A DNA stretch of 64,000 nt from Siniperca chuatsi (taxonomy: Eukaryota > Chordata > Actinopteri > Centrarchiformes > Sinipercidae): the NCBI RefSeq assembly GCF_020085105.1, contig NC_058051.1, positions 17,706,455 to 17,770,454 on the forward strand, written 5' to 3'. Under the pieces are notes generated by a model. The model was given only the letters and a program-made list of their open reading frames with translations, did not search any database and had not been told where the DNA came from. A program made the position numbers and the translations under genes. The first letter of the stretch is position 1. Each line of letters opens with the position of its first letter. Positions 22,409 through 54,784 of this stretch are shown here, piece by piece.

Positions 22409-24732
22409 CTAGTCGTTAACTAGTCGATAAACATGGTACTGTGCTCCATGTTCACTAGTGGACACTTCAAACACAAAGGCGATGCACAGCAGAGTCTCTT
22501 GAGTTTCTCTGTTGGACACCACCTAGCAAGAGACAGGAAAAGAGGAAAACATTGTGGAGGTCAGGATTTAATAATAAAACATGCAAACAAACTCCAATCT
22601 GGAGATACAGATGTAGGAAATAACACAGGTGCACAGAGACACATGCACATACCTGTAGGATGGTGAAGTTCTCCAGTACACTGTTCATCATGTATTTCTC
22701 TGGCAGGTGTTTGAGTTTGTGGATGAAGTTGATCATATATTCACACATGGGCGAACGATGGATGCGGAACACGTACTTTCCTCCTTCCATTTGTGCATAT
22801 TCAGTCTTAATGGGAGGAATCCACACATCACAGTTAAACCACATGTTAATATGGTCTGATATGAAGCCCTTTAAGCACATTAAAAAAAAAAGGACAAAAA
22901 GAAAAAGAAAAAAAAGGGTTCATCTTCTCACCTCAACCTTCTCTACCACCTGTTTGCCAAAGGAGCAGACCTTTGTTGAAACACTGATGGTGATGTTTTC
23001 TGTTCCACTGTACTGGCTGCTCACACCGTAGAACACACCAGAACCCTCCTCAATGTCACTGCTCAGGTCGGCCTGAAACAAGCACAAAAAGATGGGCCGT
23101 GTGAATTCCAGCACATATCTGGGTCAGGGTTACTACTGTGGCTCTTGATGCAAAATGTGAGCATTTTCCTGTGACTTTTAGTCCCATTACATGCTCTAAG
23201 CAATAATAAAAATAACTTAAGGCATTTCTTGCTTTCATGTGTATTAAAATATGCAGGATAGTTAAAGGTTCACTGTGGAATTTTTGACCACTAGCAGCGC
23301 TATGGAGTCGTTTTTCTATGAGTAGGTCCACTTTTTGTTTGTCTCGTGTAAGCGCACAAGGTATGCATGTGTGCACATGAAGGTGATGTGGTACACAGTC
23401 CTGCCAATGGTTTCACACTATTCCACTGATCAACAGGTGGAGGTAACAGGCCAAGATATGCTGCAATGTGCCAGCAAAGGCAGGGAAGAAGAAGACTGCA
23501 AGCTAGTAAACATGAATGTAAACAATGCAGGATTTAAAATACTTACTGTTTGTTTACAAGAAAACTCCACAGGGCACCTTTAAATAAAATTGTTTGACAA
23601 GCAACTACCAGTTCCTGTGTAAACCCCTGCTCCAGCATCACATTGGCTTTGCTTCCCCCGTGTGGTGTAGCAGGTTATAACCTCAGACTAAACGGAGCTA
23701 TGTAATGTAACACCAACATAAACCAACCATCTAATGCAATGACTGAAATAAAGATCTAATGCAAAAACTAAAATACATAGGTTACGTTAGTGTCAAAGTT
23801 GTATAATTCCCCAATGACCCCCTGACTTCTTGTGATAATTTACCAAATTCATCGACTTCCTTTTCTGCAGCATACCTCTCAAAATTTGCAGTTAAAAAAA
23901 TAAAATAAAATTCTCATCAGTGAGAACACTGCGTACTGACCCAGAACTTGACGAGAAAGAATGCGTTGTGCGGCCCTTTTTCATACAGCTCCTTCAGGCC
24001 TCCTTTCTTCTCAGAGAACTTGTCGTAAATCTGCCTCACATCTATAGACTCCAACACGGGGTCATTGTAGCCCGGGTTTGTTGGGCCAATGTGTACGAAA
24101 AGGTGTTTATACTGTAGGGAAGGAAGGAGAACTGATAAGAAAGTGAGGAAAGACTTGGTTTGGCAAAATTTTATATTGTTATACTGTATAAATGTCTGGA
24201 TGTCTGTACCGCCTCCCTGTCTCTCTGGGTCTCCAGAAAAGCAGAGTACTCCAGTAGCCGTAGTTTTGCTGAGGCGATGGTTCTGTCTTGCCATACAGGA
24301 GCTGCTATAGCTGCAGGGCGGTGGGGAGGCAGCGGCTCATAACCTGCCAAACATTTAAACCGGGAAAACACAATTAATATAACAATAATCTTTACTAATT
24401 ACTAAAATCTGTGAGTTTGCGTTCACACTTACTGATAGGTGCAGGGACAGGGGCTGGTAGTGTAGTGTATGGTGGCTGTGCAAAGGGCTTGATGCTGTGA
24501 GAAGGAAGAGTAGGAACCCAAAAATGAGCAACTGTACCAGCTTAAGTACAAGACTCTCTCCAATTTTAAACAAACAAAACCAACTAATCTGCCAGTGTTA
24601 CTTACTCCTGAGAATGTCCAGGCTGTCCTGGCATAGGGCCGGGCCAAAACTAAACAAAGGGAAAGAAGGGAAACAGGGCAGATAGTATACTCAGACTTTT
24701 ATCCAGAAGGTAGAAAAGTGTGTGTGAACAGA

Positions 24733-24764
<32 letters not shown>

Positions 24765-26854
24765 TGTCTCACTCTAACTGGTGCAGGGAACGGAGTCTGG
24801 GCTTTCATTACACTAGCTGACACAATCTGTGCTGATGAGAGGTTGGCTACTGTCTGCAGTGCCTTGTCTTTGGATACCTGGTCCTAAATGAGAAAGACAA
24901 AGTATTACACAATGAAAATGCTCCATCTTGAAAAATCCAGTAAAAATTTGGTTAGAAAATGCTCCAGTCAGCCAACCTTCAAGGTGGGTTTAGACAGCAA
25001 GCCAGCCAACATATTATACAGTACTTCAGCATGATGCAGTAACTATGAGGGAAGACAGGACAGAGTGCAAAGCAGAAATGGGGGGGGGGGGCACCAAGCT
25101 AGCAGGCTAGGAGAGCTAACTGGAGCCATCACCAGTATTTAACTAAAGCCACTAAAAACAAGAGAGTAATGAGCAGGATTTTTGAGTCTGGCAGCAGAAC
25201 TGCATTGCAGTAATGTGATGCCAACCACAAAGCACAAAGCCTGAAGCACAAAACTGTAGTTGTATAACCAAAACTTACCAAGTTCATGGCCTATGGCAAA
25301 GAAGACACATTATTAATTAACTTCAGTACATTCAAAATAACAGCAGGTCACAGATTCACTGTTCAATGTAGAAAAACACCTTGCTCACTACATACAACTC
25401 TTTGAAATGACTACACCCTGAACCTACCTTGTCAAACACACACACGCTAAGCTAAAAAAATGAATCTTACATTGACCTGACGAGCTGCATCCTTTTAATC
25501 TGTGCTGTCTGAAAGCTGAGTGCTGATGTTTAAACCAGGAAATACATAGGCCTGGAAATCTGAACAAGTTACACTCTCCAAATGTGTGTTAGAGAGCAGC
25601 AAATTAAATGCTTTTGATGCAAAATTATGTCACAAAGAACTTTTATTACAGGACATGGTAAAACCACAAGAAAACTGCTTAAACAGAAAGATATAAAGGA
25701 CTGAGGGAAATGAGAACGTGGAGATCAGAAGTGATTTAAAAGAGAAAACTGAAATTTGTCATATATGCACATGGATGAGAGGCACATTCAAAAAATCCCT
25801 GCATGTCTGTGTGTACGCAAGCATTCTTGTTAATTACTACAGCCATGCACATGCTTAGGTCAACCAAGACAGCTACTGATTCTCATGCAATTATCTGTCC
25901 AAAGCCACAAGCCCTGTGAACTAAGTAAACAAATCAACATTATTGCCATGCATTATAACAAAACCCTCTTTCCCACATATTGTGACACATAACCGCATTC
26001 AAAACATCTGGCTTTTACAGTGTAGAAGTTAGACTTACACAACAAGTGAGACCTTTAAAGCATATAAGTAAACAAATAAAATGTTTGAAAATATACTGAG
26101 TTTGCAAAATCTGAGGCAGTCATGCCACATTCCCACAGCCATTAACAAGCACTATCTCAGTGCCCTAATGATGGTATTACAGTCATGTACCTAACTATTT
26201 CTAAGCTGGATTTATACTTCTCCATCAAGGTGTTCCAGGTGTTCTATTATTAATGAAAACAAAATGACAGTCCTTCTCTGATTTGTTTCATGCTGTCTTG
26301 GCAGTGAAACTACGTGTAGTTACATTTTTGAGGAGGTGCACGTCAACTATGGCAGAACCCCCAATGTACGAATGGAGCCTTGTTAAGTGCGTACAGTAAA
26401 ACCCAGACAGAGAAGCATAAATCTGCCATAAGCTCTGACAAAGACATCTATGGTGATTTAATGGCAGAGCGAAGCAGCTAGCATGGTCAGTGAGCGTGTG
26501 TACCTTGAGCTTAGACTGAATCTCACGCGACTTTCTCTTGGCCAAGACTTGCAGGTGACTAGAGACCTGACGAAAGACAGGATGAAGGAAAGAAGATGGG
26601 AGGGAAAAGGAAAGGAAAAGAAGAGGGGATGTGACTACAGAGAGAAGGGAGAGTTGATTTAGTGGGCACCCACCTTAATGCTGGTCTGGTATTCTCGTAC
26701 CCTCTTACGTGCCAGAACCTGAATGTGACTAGACACCTATGGGGCCAGGGTTACCCCCATGAAAAAAACACACATTTTCAGGATGATTTTGGCAATTTTA
26801 AATAGACATGGTCCATTAATAATGACTTCAATGAGGTGAATGGGTAAATTACAA

Positions 26855-26888
<34 letters not shown>

Positions 26889-29535
26889 TCTCAGGAGGTT
26901 TGTAAAACACATGTAAACACTGTTGTCTTCAATAACACCTGTGCATACCTGTTTGCGTGTGCGCGTCTTTCCTGTTCGTAGCTTGATATAGCGAGCTATC
27001 AGCTCATTTCGACCTAGAATTGAGAAATTAATAGTTAAAATCAGAAGTGAGCACTTTAAGCAGCTGCATAGGGTATTGCAACTTCTGCGTTTATCACGTG
27101 ATGCATACTGGCCCAAAAAGCGTTTTTAGCAACCTGTGTGTAAAACACACGCATATCTCTTTTGTCCAGGTGCTGACTCCAAAAAGTAGGTACTATCTGT
27201 TTCTGGATTCGCAACACTGTAGAAGACTCCCCGTGCAAAAAGCTTTCCACCCGTACACAAGCAGTGGAAAAGGAGTGGCTGTAAAACGGTGAATGAATTT
27301 ATTTGAGTGTCACAAACCCCCCAAAATAACCTTTTATTTTCAAAATTTGATATAAACAACATTTGAAAAGTCTGCAGGAGCCGTATGGTTAAATTATTTT
27401 ATTCCATTCATGTGCGGGGAGCCAACAGCAAGTCAGCTCTACACTGGCTCGGCGGGAGAAGGACTCTAGTGCGCATGTTCTATACTCAAAAACCGAATTC
27501 TGCAATTTTCTGGTGAAATTATCTAATGTGTGACAATTGATGATAGCCACAATTTTGGACGAAATAAAATGATCGTTGATGTATTACACTGTTCGTTGGC
27601 ATGAATCCAGGGCCGATAAAATAAAATGTGAAAAGGTCCTGCCTTAGTTTTCGTCTGTGGTACGTTCACAAAATAGGCATGTTTTACTACTACTACTACT
27701 ACTACTACTACTCCTCCTCCTCCTCCTCCAACCACGGGTGCAACCAATCTCATTTGTTCACTGAAATAAATACAAACCTAAAAAGGCAATGGTGACGGGA
27801 GTGAGTGCACTAATACATTAACATTAAGCCAAACTTAATCAGTACTTGATCTCAAATCTACTGCAACACAGCAAACCACACAGTCTCTATTTTAATTTGT
27901 ATCTTACAACGTTAATCTTCTTAAGTACAATCATAACACACCTGGCAAGACCATGAGTCCTTCATGTTTTTCAGCCTAGGGATCACTGTGACATTGAGCA
28001 TTTCAACTGGTCGAATGTATGTTTAGGTTGTACTGAACCAAGCCTTGGTATGAAGAAAAAGAAGATGAGAATAGATGTGGATCCTTTTTCCATTCTCAGA
28101 AAGCATTTGAAATGAAGCCAGCATAATATGAAAGTTTAATGTGGCTGCACTTTTAGTGTGAGATGTGAGAAGATAGTGAGGCTCTCATAAGTCTACTGCA
28201 TTCCCACACGCACACGCAATTACAGGGACTGTCAAGCTTTCAATTTATGTATGATATTGTCATTAAGGACAGTGTGTGTTAATTTAGAGTCAGATTTGGC
28301 CTTGCTCGATGGCAGAGCTCCAAAGCAGACAGACAAGAGGTGGGAATGGAAGGAAAAAGAGAGAAGAGGTCATCATATAGTTATGCTTCCAAAATGTGGT
28401 CACAACAGACTGCATGGTCAGCTTTCTTTCTCTGCCTCCCCCAGATCCAACCCACACTTGATGATCTGTTTGTCTCTAATCGTAACTGGTGAGCAACTCA
28501 CTATTCACTCTGCTGTGTTGTCAAAATTAGAGAGATACTAAAGAGAGGTTCAAGATAAAGGTGCCCAAATTAAGCCTTACAGACTGATTCCATGGCTGTA
28601 ATCATTTAATCACATTTACACATGCATTAACATCATCAACATCACCATCCCTCTTTCTGGGAAGTGGTGTCATGCTGTAGGAACTGGAGCAGGCTGAGTC
28701 ACATCAACTGGAGTTACCAGAACACAGAATTCCCCAAAATCAACAGAAGGGGCTGACTCAGACCCAGCAGTCTGCTCCAATTCCCAAAACAGGACACATG
28801 TACTTTCCTGCAGCCTACCGCTACGCCACATAAGGCCAAACGCATGTCCCATTTGTTGTATGTGTGTTGTATCCAAGTCGAAATTAGAGATGAGATTTTC
28901 ATCAAAAAAAGAGAGAGATAAAGGGAGACAGACAGTGCACAATACAGAGAGTGGGCCAGCAAGATAAAACTAAACAAACTCAAATTTATTTGGTCATTAT
29001 TTCAGTGAGGATACACAATTAAAAATAGCAGAAAATAACTGCATAAATTGTATTCGCCAGAGTGACACAATTGGCAAAGCGTCTTGCAAATATCAAGCAT
29101 ATTTCACCAGTGGAGCCTGACCTTCTCACAGCAGGGTTCGTGAAGAGGCCCTGCCAAAAATGTATTTGATAATCTGAATGAGCCTGTCTTTGACCCGACT
29201 TGACTTAGTCCCATCTGTAAATGAAAAAAAATCAACCACATCCAGAAAAGGATTTGATTTGTTCACAGGGGTTGTATTTAGTCAACTGCTGGAAGTCAAT
29301 TTTGGACTTAAAAATGTTCTTAAATTTAAGAGAGCTCCAGTAGCGTGGCATAGAGTAGATCCTAGAGGGCTGCAGTACAGAAACAGAGCTGAACCCACAG
29401 CTTCTGAGACATGTTTTGGAGGAATTGTCCACAAGATCATTGGTCATAATGAATAATACATTAGCTTAGGCAATATGAATAATTCAGAATGACTTTCTTT
29501 GTTTGTTTCCATTACAACAAATGTCCTATTTATTT

Positions 29536-32600: not shown

Positions 32601-32880
32601 GGTTTGCGGTTACATGACAGAAAATGTTTCATTATGTTAGGACAGAAATTTGCTGTTCCTCACCATACATCTTCCCTTCATCTGAGAGTATGATCTTCCT
32701 CCTGCCGCAGGGAGGGTAGATGGCCAGAGCTTCCTGAAAGCTCTGCTCAATGTCTGGACTCCACACTCCCTCAGGGTCGCCGTCCAATCCACGGTCCGGC
32801 CCGTCTCCCAGTGCTTCTCCATCGCCACCCTCCTCCTGCGCCCCGTCAGGGCTGCCACGGCAACTCCACTCCGACGCAAT
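22409..32880 (-). CDS. tead3: TEAD3, TEA-domain transcription factor (Hippo/YAP effector)
   Basis: Coding exons 32880-32664, 27013-26949, 26736-26674 (or 26566-26504), 25290-25279, 24883-24773, 24649-24606, 24494-24433, 24343-24210, 24111-23941, 23072-22932, 22805-22653 and 22522-22409 join in phase to 428 residues; human TEAD3 has 435. Residues 38-115 are the TEA DNA-binding domain ([40 protein letters not shown]). From about 210 to 428 is the YAP/TAZ-binding domain ([44 protein letters not shown]). Cys361 in SPMCEYM aligns with the palmitoylated Cys359 of TEAD1. The AMNL insert, the VREYQ helix and the acidic head ending [18 protein letters not shown] are TEAD3 traits. The start is taken as ATT at 32880 because the exon has no in-frame ATG before residue 70. 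TEADs drive growth genes with YAP/TAZ in the nucleus. The tead3a/b assignment is open. Confidence 0.96.
23262..23583. mobile_element. TTAA-ended MITE in a tead3 intron
   Basis: The left end TTAAAGGTTCACTGTGGAAT and the reverse-complemented right end TTTAAAGGTGCCCTGTGGAG form imperfect inverted termini, with TTAA at or next to both ends. The 0.32-kb interior has no coding potential. It lies in the intron between exons at 22932-23072 and 23941-24111. Confidence 0.65.
24733..24761 (+). repeat. (GT)n microsatellite beside a tead3 exon
   Basis: About fourteen GT units lie 12 bp from the end of the exon at 24773-24883, on the donor side. On the sense strand this is an AC run directly after the donor site. 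Confidence 0.9.
25080..25091 (+). repeat. G12 homopolymer in a tead3 intron
   Basis: Twelve G in a row followed by CACC; a likely sequencing and replication slippage site. Confidence 0.9.
25279..25290 (-). other. tead3: tead3 12-nt microexon encoding AMNL
   Basis: Twelve bases (GCCATGAACTTG) sit between a CATAG acceptor and a GTAAGT donor, and translate to AMNL. This is exactly the tetrapeptide that follows the TEA domain in mammalian TEAD3 and is equivalent to the alternatively used VTSM exon of TEAD1. Gene finders usually miss it. Confidence 0.92.
26504..26566 (-). other. tead3: tead3 alternative exon B (TEAD2/1/4-type end of TEA domain)
   Basis: A second 63-nt, phase-0 exon, 107 nt downstream of exon A, encoding [17 protein letters not shown] plus four residues ending KLK. 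Acceptor TTTCGTCAG and donor GTACAC are intact, and no stop or frameshift is present. The SREIQSKLK form is that of TEAD2, close to TEAD4 and TEAD1, and differs from exon A at the C-terminal half. Both exons are multiples of three, so either one, both or neither keeps the frame; mutual exclusion is inferred from homology, not proven. Confidence 0.88.
26674..26736 (-). other. tead3: tead3 alternative exon A (TEAD3-type end of TEA domain)
   Basis: A 63-nt, phase-0 exon encoding [17 protein letters not shown] plus four residues, flanked by a TAG acceptor and a GTGGGT donor. The VREYQ form is specific to TEAD3. It is the first of two tandem exons for the same 21 residues, which include the recognition helix of the TEA domain. 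Confidence 0.9.
26856..26886. repeat. A31 homopolymer upstream of tead3 exon A
   Basis: On the tead3 sense strand it is a run of 31 T, about 120 nt before the acceptor of alternative exon A. It could bind polypyrimidine-tract proteins; this role is inference only. Confidence 0.95.
27685..27729 (+). repeat. (ACT)n then (CCT)n compound trinucleotide tract
   Basis: Nine ACT units pass directly into six to seven CTC units inside the tead3 intron. Confidence 0.9.
29536..29603. repeat. (TA)n tract of about 68 bp
   Basis: Alternating TA with a single phase slip at about 29559. It is self-complementary and may extrude as a cruciform. Confidence 0.95.
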
Positions 32881-32905
32881 GATGACGGCTCCGGCCACAA
32901 CACAC
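32664..32905 (-). other. tead3: tead3 first coding exon, with non-AUG start
   Basis: The acceptor CTAG at 32909-32906 opens the exon, which reads in frame [16 protein letters not shown] without any ATG until KMYG at its end. ATT at 32880-32878 lies in a strong context (A at -3, G at +4) and is followed by GCG TCG, so initiation there gives MASEW, the counterpart of mammalian MASNSW. Mammalian TEAD1, TEAD3 and TEAD4 are known to start at non-AUG codons. Confidence 0.8.
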
Positions 32906-52808: not shown

Positions 52809-54094
52809 TTAGGGCGTGGTCTTCCCTCCTGATCCACACATCTCTGTGTGATTGGCTCGGCTGCCAATTCTCGATCGGCGAACTTGCTTGTCCCTATGGC
52901 AACAGTTTATGTTCATGAGGAAGCGCCTCCATATTTGACTGTAGGCCTGTTGGATCTTTGGGATGCGATACGCATAAACCACAGGGTTGACTGCTGAGTT
53001 GGCATGAGACAGGAGAATACCTGGAAAAATGGATTTGTTACTGTCAAATTTCACAGTAACTGCTGGTAAGTATTGTGTATAAAGCCTCAGGGGGAACTTT
53101 GCAAACAAATCTCTCAACATGAATAAAAAAAACCTCCCACTAACTGTGTAAGTACTAGAAAAGCTACTGTCACCTGCCTGTATAGAGTGTCCCCTGTGTG
53201 ACAGCTTGAGGACCATGAAACAACAGCAGACAGTTCATCAGGTGCAGAGGAATCCAGCAGCCAGCAAACAAACTGAGAATCAGAGCCAGGGAGCAGGCCA
53301 GCCTCTTCTCCGTGAGCAGAGAGGCCTGGGCTTGAGGACAGCTCTCCTTCAGACGGCCCTGCAGGCTCCAGAAGATTCGCGTGTAGAGGAGGGTCATGAC
53401 CAGCAGGGGTGCCATGACACATCCGAGGAAGTTGAAGTAGACCATGAAGGGGAGGGAGATAACTGAGAGGAAGGTGCAGGGTGGAGAGATGAAGGAAGTG
53501 GAAGATGTATTTGTGGAATCAGATGCTAGAGAGGAGTAGTTGTGCCACCCAAACAGAGGGGTGAACCCCAGTAGGCAGGAAAGTGTCCAGCACACAGACA
53601 CAGCCATCCATGTACGCCTTTGTGTGGCCAGTGCTTTGTATCTGAGAAAGAAGGAAGGAAAGATAGAGGATTATTTCCACAAATCAACAAGTAAGCATGT
53701 TATCTATATAACTTTTCTACCTGTAAACCTGTGTTTCAGACTGCAAACCTTACCTGAGCGGTGTTTGTAACCGGAGGTATCGGTCCACGGCGATAGCTAG
53801 CAGTGACAGCACAGAGGCCTGAGTCAGCACGAGCACCACACAGCTGAGAAGTAGGCACAGGTCAGGGGTCAGATTCACCCAGCCATCCAATAGTACAGAC
53901 AGGGGCACAGCGGCCACACCCACTAGGAAGTCAGCCACTGCCAAGGAAACGAGGAAGCAGAAGGTTGGCTCTCGAAGGGAATCCCGGATACCAATACATA
54001 CCGCACACACTACCAACGCATTGCCAAAGCAACAGGCCACAGCAATCAGCACTTCTAGTACAGTGTAGGCCACCCAACTCCACTCAGCCATCAC
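52809..54094 (-). CDS. Adenosine receptor, A3-like class A GPCR
   Basis: Three exons, 54094-53754, 53641-53178 and 53020-52809, join to 338 residues (human A1 326, A3 318). Seven membrane segments are visible, with GN in TM1, SLAVADFLVG in TM2, LAIAVDRYLR (DRY) after TM3, CWIPLH in TM6 and SHANSAVNPVVYAYR in TM7. Adenosine-pocket residues are kept: Phe after the ECL2 Cys (CTF), Trp and Asn of TM6 (W..LH..NC), and Ser-His of TM7. The ECL2 Glu of A1/A2 is Leu here, as the A3 type has a hydrophobic residue. N-glycosylation sites (NYS, NTS) lie in ECL2. The first intron, after Leu-Arg of QTPLR, is the conserved adenosine-receptor intron. A1 and A3 signal through Gi. The subtype is uncertain (A3 over A1). 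A minus-strand AATAAA at 52273-52278 would end the mRNA about 50 bp from the let-7a hairpin. Confidence 0.92.
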
Positions 54095-54784
54095 TGAAGA
54101 TGGAGACCACGGAAGACAAAGAAGCTATGAATTTTGATAGAGAAGGTTTCCTTGAGAGCTGTGGACAGGTGGGTTGAATTCCACAGCGAGAGTTAAGTCC
54201 AACATAATCCTGTGTTTGCTGTTCAGATAGTGTATTCCTGCTCTTGGCTTCAAATGACCAGAAAAAGCTTTGGACAGATGCTTTTTATATGCAAACATGC
54301 ATGCGCTTCTGTGTGCACACACAACAACAGGCGTGCACTCCATGGAGACACCATCTGTATTTCATTAGTGAGTGAACATCATTTCCTCACTCTAATAAAT
54401 GTGCCTCAGTAGCCATAGAGGAGAGGACTTCTGAATGAGCCATGGCACATTTTTCACACAACAGGAGTGTTTGATATAGCCAGCGGTTCTCACAATATTT
54501 TAAAAGTATTAATACTACAGTGTTACAATACTGAATAAGTAAAGCAAAATGTATTTAAAATCTAAAAAAAATCACAAAATATCCCCTTTTAGTGTCATAT
54601 TTTGATATATATTATATTACTAATGCATTAATTTGTAAGCAGTATTTTAATGTTGTAACTGTTTGAACTAATTTGAACTACTATATATGATATTGGGTAG
54701 TTTGATCTGTCATAATGCATCACATATTATAAGTTGATCATGTGTTTTATATGTAAAATCTAAATCTCCAAAGTAACTAAAGCT

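Follow-up and report, generated by a model that had tools for sequence, protein, structure and literature searches.

Alternative exons can rewrite the DNA-binding domain of a transcription factor. One such example is the exon 18/18b switch of FOXP1, in which the choice of exon alters the DNA-binding domain, its DNA-contacting residues and its specificity. In alpha-tropomyosin, a branch point lying near the upstream donor can stop exons 2 and 3 from being joined to each other, and joining of neighbouring exons is barred where the branch point sits less than about 50 nt beyond the donor. Hippo signalling reaches DNA through the TEADs, which are drug targets, and helix 3 of their TEA domain is described as the recognition helix (PMC12672301, PMC5876656). 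Tandem-duplicated substitution exons are a recognised class in vertebrates: 236 such events have been counted in human, more than 90% of them with orthologous teleost events, in the account of Martinez-Gomez et al. (2022, PMC9741552). Tead1 has also been named as a potential Mbnl splicing target in a mouse craniofacial paper (PMC7498679).

A tandem exon pair and its gene

The window, the whole stretch of 64,000 nucleotides of Siniperca chuatsi DNA that was analysed, carries on its minus strand a gene identified by sequence comparison as tead3, since its YAP-binding domain is closest, among solved TEADs, to TEF-5 (TEAD3; up to 362 bits), with TEF-3 and TEF-1 next at 342 bits. The initial annotation had named the gene in the same way. 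A hand-joined peptide matches the TEA family (Pfam PF01285) at 99.5 bits with exon A, 99.0 bits with exon B and 106.0 bits with both, the cut-off being 25.1. The first half of the domain lies in an exon at 32664..32905 (-), which ends in ...GKMYG and is covered by that PF01285 match, and the domain continues in an exon at 26949..27013 (-) that ends in frame after ...RTRKQ. Because this upstream exon closes after the Q codon of RTRKQ, exons A and B both follow it in phase 0. Downstream of the pair come a 12-nt microexon encoding AMNL, placed between B and the next exon (25279..25290, minus strand; splice scores 9.2 and 9.0), and the remaining exons from DQVSKDKAL... to the stop (22409..24883, minus strand), which include the YAP-binding domain; their edges between 24883 and 24111 are not all fixed.

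Exon A (26674..26736, minus strand) is of the TEAD3 type, is preceded by CCATAG and is followed by GTGGGT. Exon B (26504..26566, minus strand) is of the TEAD1/2/4 type, with CGTCAG before it and GTACAC after it. The intron between them spans 107 nt (26567..26673, minus strand), and its last 70 nt are 86% pyrimidine. Each exon is 63 nt long, in phase 0, free of stops and bounded by AG and GT, so the tandem arrangement described in the initial annotation stands; its statement that both exons encode the same 21 residues has to be narrowed to the same segment, as 12 of the 21 residues are identical. The differences lie mainly after VLA, as it had said, with eight of the nine differing residues found there. 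At the DNA level 36 of 63 bases are identical, and the differences fall 7, 6 and 14 on codon positions 1, 2 and 3, the pattern expected under protein-coding constraint. The pair is real, coding and conserved. Its two exons are homologous neighbours that agree in length and phase and have intact splice sites, the features by which tandem-duplicated exons are recognised.

The reading frame of the gene seemingly begins at AUU (IASEW...; window 32880, minus strand), and the sole in-frame ATG of the first-half exon lies 7 nt from the exon end, which makes a non-AUG start likely. ATT stands at the start position also in a second tead3-like gene of this genome, C2 (GCCACCATTG), and in a tead1-like gene, C1 (ACGATTG); another tead1-like gene, C4a, has ATG. 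A non-AUG start common to TEAD1, TEAD3 and TEAD4 has been called likely (PMC11317171). The AMNL microexon following the helix-3 exon is found in the window gene and in C2, and C1 has VTSM at that place. We take AMNL after the helix-3 exon to be the form of human TEAD3. This microexon could be alternatively spliced along with A and B. Elsewhere in the window are a rhodopsin-family receptor (7tm_1; 53173-54124, minus strand), in two open stretches at 53753-54124 and 53173-53670, and an Armadillo-repeat stretch (PF00514; 1876-2373, minus strand) that probably belongs to another gene.

Recurrence, constraint and age

The 719-Mb Siniperca chuatsi genome holds at least five tead genes with TEA-domain matches, the window gene included, and the A-then-B pair occurs in three of the five found, in the same order, phase and length. 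In addition to the window gene, it is present in C2, in which A and B are separated by 141 nt, and in C1, in which A reads VSSHIQVIARKKVREIQAAIK and B lies 90 nt away. B stands alone in C4a, called tead1-like from its N-terminus and C-terminal exons, and in C4b, called tead4-like from its DQAAKDKAL exon; the B exon of C4b shares 20 of its 21 residues with human TEAD4. C1, C2, C4a and C4b were named by comparing short segments of each with human sequence, the family test applying to the window gene only.

A scan of both strands of six 9.9-kb stretches from tead loci, looking for open frames of 63 nt that share 8 or more of 21 residues with exon A or exon B of the window, returned two A/B pairs (L009, which is C1, and L010) and two single B exons (L011 and L012), all with AG and GT edges. 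Identities to the window exons are 16 and 18 of 21 for A and 17, 20, 18 and 17 for B. Outside these exons the scan gave three matches at 8-9 of 21 residues, none with both AG and GT edges, one of them being the only match in L014; L013 had no match at all. That the remaining matches were so weak and lacked such edges argues that the exon pair is not a product of chance. A motif scan of L013 did not reveal the first TEA exon of C4b. Relatives were absent from viral contigs, prokaryote genomes, plasmids and phages, as expected for an animal gene.

A has been lost in one of the two tead1-like genes, and this suggests isoforms divided between gene copies. The idea that exon B compensates for lost tead2 and tead4 was rejected, as the Siniperca chuatsi genome has a tead4-like gene; zebrafish has been reported with only tead1a/1b/3a/3b (PMC6759317).

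Both exons are constrained at the protein level. Between the two tead3 gene copies, window and C2, A has a pN of 0.06 and a pS of 0.76, and B has 0.05 and 0.84; synonymous sites are saturated or nearly so and the protein is held, alike for A and B. Comparison between gene copies of one species thus indicates that both exons are under purifying selection. Relaxed selection on B had been named beforehand as the sign that would speak against a functional pair, and the low pN against the high pS of B, taken between gene copies of one species rather than between related species, shows no decay and argues that B is not a decaying relic.

The exons group by type rather than by gene. Pairwise identities, of 21 residues, are 16-18 in the three A-A comparisons, 17-20 in the ten B-B comparisons and 12-15 in the fifteen A-B comparisons, and every within-type value exceeds every A-B value. 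In unrooted trees of three A and five B exons, built on this 21-residue alignment, the split between A and B has bootstrap values of 91% for protein and 97% for DNA (200 replicates), and TEAD4 from entry 5gzb, included in the protein tree, groups on the B side. Positions 11, 13, 18, 19 and 20 separate the three A from the five B exons. This grouping most simply places the duplication before the tead1/tead3 split, and the simplest history, for which the case from sequence is strong but not proof, would be one duplication, with A later lost from some of the descendant genes.

The exon pair appears to be older than the initial annotation supposed. Exon A had been suggested there to be a TEAD3 innovation; this is not supported, as the tead1-like gene C1 carries an A-type exon, which falls on the A side of the tree. 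The same annotation had ascribed the SREIQ form of B to Drosophila Scalloped as well and had proposed B as ancestral. At the key exon position, the Scalloped NLS as published has L, where window B has S and window A has V (PMC3121794), so the ascription is not supported. Over 14 exon residues Scalloped is equally near window A and window B (11 each). The counts are 12 and 12 for A and B of C2, 11 and 13 for A and B of C1, and 13 each for the B exons of C4a and C4b; B is slightly nearer Scalloped in three genes, and on these counts neither A nor B appears favoured as ancestral overall. The human TEAD3 reference protein is, we assume, of the A form. Solved structures show the B form in TEF-3 (TEAD4) and, as far as the first residues beyond the serine, in TEF-1 (TEAD1).

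Splice signals and the proposed choice between A and B

Splice-site and branch-point scores are relative only. In all three pairs the A acceptor is weaker than the B acceptor (2.3 vs 11.3 in the window, 7.6 vs 10.7 in C2, 7.5 vs 10.6 in C1) and the A donor is stronger than the B donor (9.8 vs 3.8, 9.9 vs 8.1 and 9.1 vs 8.1, respectively). Of the nine acceptors and six donors ranked in the window gene, the weakest acceptor is that of A and the weakest donor that of B; the rankings leave out the donors of FWV and VEKVE and the acceptor of TEYAQ and cover only part of the exon edges. Complementary splice-site weakness of this kind is usual for regulated exons. The A acceptor of C1 (L009) ends in GAG, an unusual base at position -3, which fits a weak regulated exon.

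The three best branch-point candidates in the A-B intron of the window lie 91, 15 and 42 nt from the A donor. The top-scoring one, 91 nt from that donor and 17 nt from B, leaves A free to be joined to B in the window gene. In C2 the best candidate lies 35 nt from the A donor, and in C1 37 nt; an AG that intervenes between the C1 candidate and B makes it less likely to serve B, but the next plausible candidate is also near the A donor, at 49 nt. Exclusion of A-to-B joining by spacing is plausible for C2 and C1, and mutually exclusive use of A and B is likewise plausible from the splice-site asymmetry together with the branch-point spacing in two of the three genes.

Two other features were considered and set aside. 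Motifs of the PTB type are enriched in C2 only (shuffles reaching the observed number, of 2000: 3 in C2, 217 in the window, 1773 in C1), and PTB repression was rejected as a general mechanism. In the three pairs the A and B acceptors, six in all, have AG-free zones of 36-135 nt (median 69.5), against a median of 31.5 and a maximum of 73 in 14 control acceptors; long zones were rejected as a feature specific to pairs, because the B acceptors of the genes without A have zones of 149 and 58 nt.

An arrangement in which B is constitutive and A is added before it in some tissues, or the reverse, would double the helix segment by 21 residues. All junctions are in phase 0, so A+B would stay in frame, and the 107-nt intron of the window has its candidate branch point 91 nt from the A donor; the best candidates of C1 and C2, at 35-37 nt, are by the tropomyosin precedent too close to the A donor for such joining. 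Additionally, Table 1 of a study of epithelial-mesenchymal transition enters TEAD1 as a case of in-frame exon skipping rather than of mutually exclusive exons, with an inclusion change of 0.61 and the description 'internal repeat downstream of TEA domain' (PMC3158048). This wording would fit A+B double inclusion in human TEAD1, but the table entry gives no exon sequence or length, and the 12-nt VTSM microexon is another candidate. Taken together, we regard such a cassette arrangement as unlikely. It is highly improbable that Siniperca chuatsi uses one exon and carries the other as a silent leftover. The weak B donor (3.8) and weak A acceptor (2.3) of the window could be read in that way, but both exons keep protein-level constraint between the tead3 genes despite near-saturated synonymous change, and their AG and GT edges are kept in all three pair genes. 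Moreover, C4a and C4b, which lack A, hold no trace of it: in the introns before B (2000 nt in C4a, 1779 nt in C4b) no A remnants were found, with none of six Smith-Waterman scores above the maximum of its own 20 shuffles.

The origin of the pair in tead1-like genes can also be read differently, as A being born in tead3 and later copied into tead1 by gene conversion or the transfer of an exon. The tree has no root and is built on just 21 residues, and in the DNA version the tead1-like B exons do not pair, that of C4a joining those of tead3 with a support of only 20%, which leaves some room for copying. The protein tree instead pairs the tead3 B exons (67%) and the tead1-like B exons (83%), and the two tead3 A exons pair at 68% for protein and 61% for DNA, as expected for inheritance. 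The tead3 and tead1-like pairs also agree in position, order, length and phase, and their introns are no more alike than chance in eight of nine comparisons, the exception being the A-B intron of C2 and C1 (14, where the highest of 30 shuffles gave 13). Later copying appears, on this evidence, quite improbable.

The differing segment and a comparison with known switches

The reading we consider likely is that A and B descend from an ancient tandem exon duplication within the TEA DNA-binding domain, which most likely occurred before the tead1/tead3 split and was kept as an either-or splice switch. Exclusive use of the exons, its regulation and the effect of the choice we infer from the features of the sequence. 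The upstream exon ending in ...RTRKQ would join A or B, and then the AMNL microexon or the DQ exon. B would probably be the default because its acceptor is stronger, and use of A would probably be regulated because its acceptor is weak. The tead4-like gene and one tead1-like gene of Siniperca chuatsi would have kept only B, and human TEAD3, presumably of the A form, would have settled on A.

The start of helix 3, VSSHxQVL, is common to A and B, save for I or L at position 5 and, in exon A of C1, an I at position 8. The pattern of the bipartite NLS is kept, with 4/5 basic residues in A, B and Scalloped, and since both products retain these two elements, each is expected to reach the nucleus and recognise the same core DNA site. 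The bipartite NLS was tested in Scalloped (PMC3121794). The two types differ chiefly at exon position 13, which is serine in B of the tead1-like and tead3 genes, alanine in B of C4b and valine in A, with basic residues preceding it. The segment ends in SKLK in window B vs TSIK in A, and the serine of B stands in a K-R-K-S-R context of the phosphorylation type. Presumably, the position 13 serine is the PKA site (Ser102 of TEAD1). According to a review, PKA and PKC phosphorylate TEADs within the DNA-binding domain, and this disrupts the binding of DNA (PMC6628201). Given this inhibition and a position 13 serine in B only, B may make a kinase-sensitive form and A an insensitive one. The switch would thus change kinase control and the contacts with DNA or partners at the end of the helix, not the core recognition sequence.

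A wider proposal can be put forward tentatively, with slightly more doubt than belief. The ancestral vertebrate TEAD gene may already have had a two-position switch in the recognition helix, and the difference at the helix-3 end between mammalian TEAD3 and TEAD1/2/4 may reflect fixation of opposite exons, A in TEAD3 and B in the others, rather than paralogue-specific mutation. Fish tead3 and tead1 would still splice both, turning a kinase-controlled helix-3 serine on with B and off with A, and tying splicing to cAMP control of Hippo output. If true, one TEAD gene would give two DNA-binding forms, possibly under different kinase control, and setting the "same" helix exon of different human TEAD paralogues side by side would amount to comparing non-orthologous exons.

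Compared with described systems, the likeness to FOXP1 is that a transcription factor would have its DNA-binding domain altered by the choice of exon; specificity changes there, whereas the helix-3 start of window A and B is the same save for I/L at position 5. The candidates of C2 and C1 have the donor to branch-point spacing of alpha-tropomyosin exons 2 and 3, whereas the best candidate of the window lies near B and would allow joining. Splicing is also known to affect the TEAD DNA-binding domain in TEAD4-S (PMC4909989) and other TEAD4 splice forms (PMC5867882, PMC3382240). As described there, TEAD4-S is without the DNA-binding domain and TEAD4-216 without the third helix, whereas A and B would swap the end of the helix. 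Among the literature matches listed, seen as titles and abstract starts and with subscription journals thinly covered, none reports such a pair of exons for TEAD1 or TEAD3; existing animal gene models may already contain both exons. A close likeness is to the tandem-duplicated substitution exons of vertebrates described by Martinez-Gomez et al. (2022, PMC9741552), which are homologous neighbours of equal length and phase, each encoding one version of a given protein segment. The main text of that work does not name TEAD, and the proposed TEAD swap differs in concerning part of a DNA-recognition helix. The A/B pair adds TEAD to this known class of tandem duplicated exons, in an unusual place.
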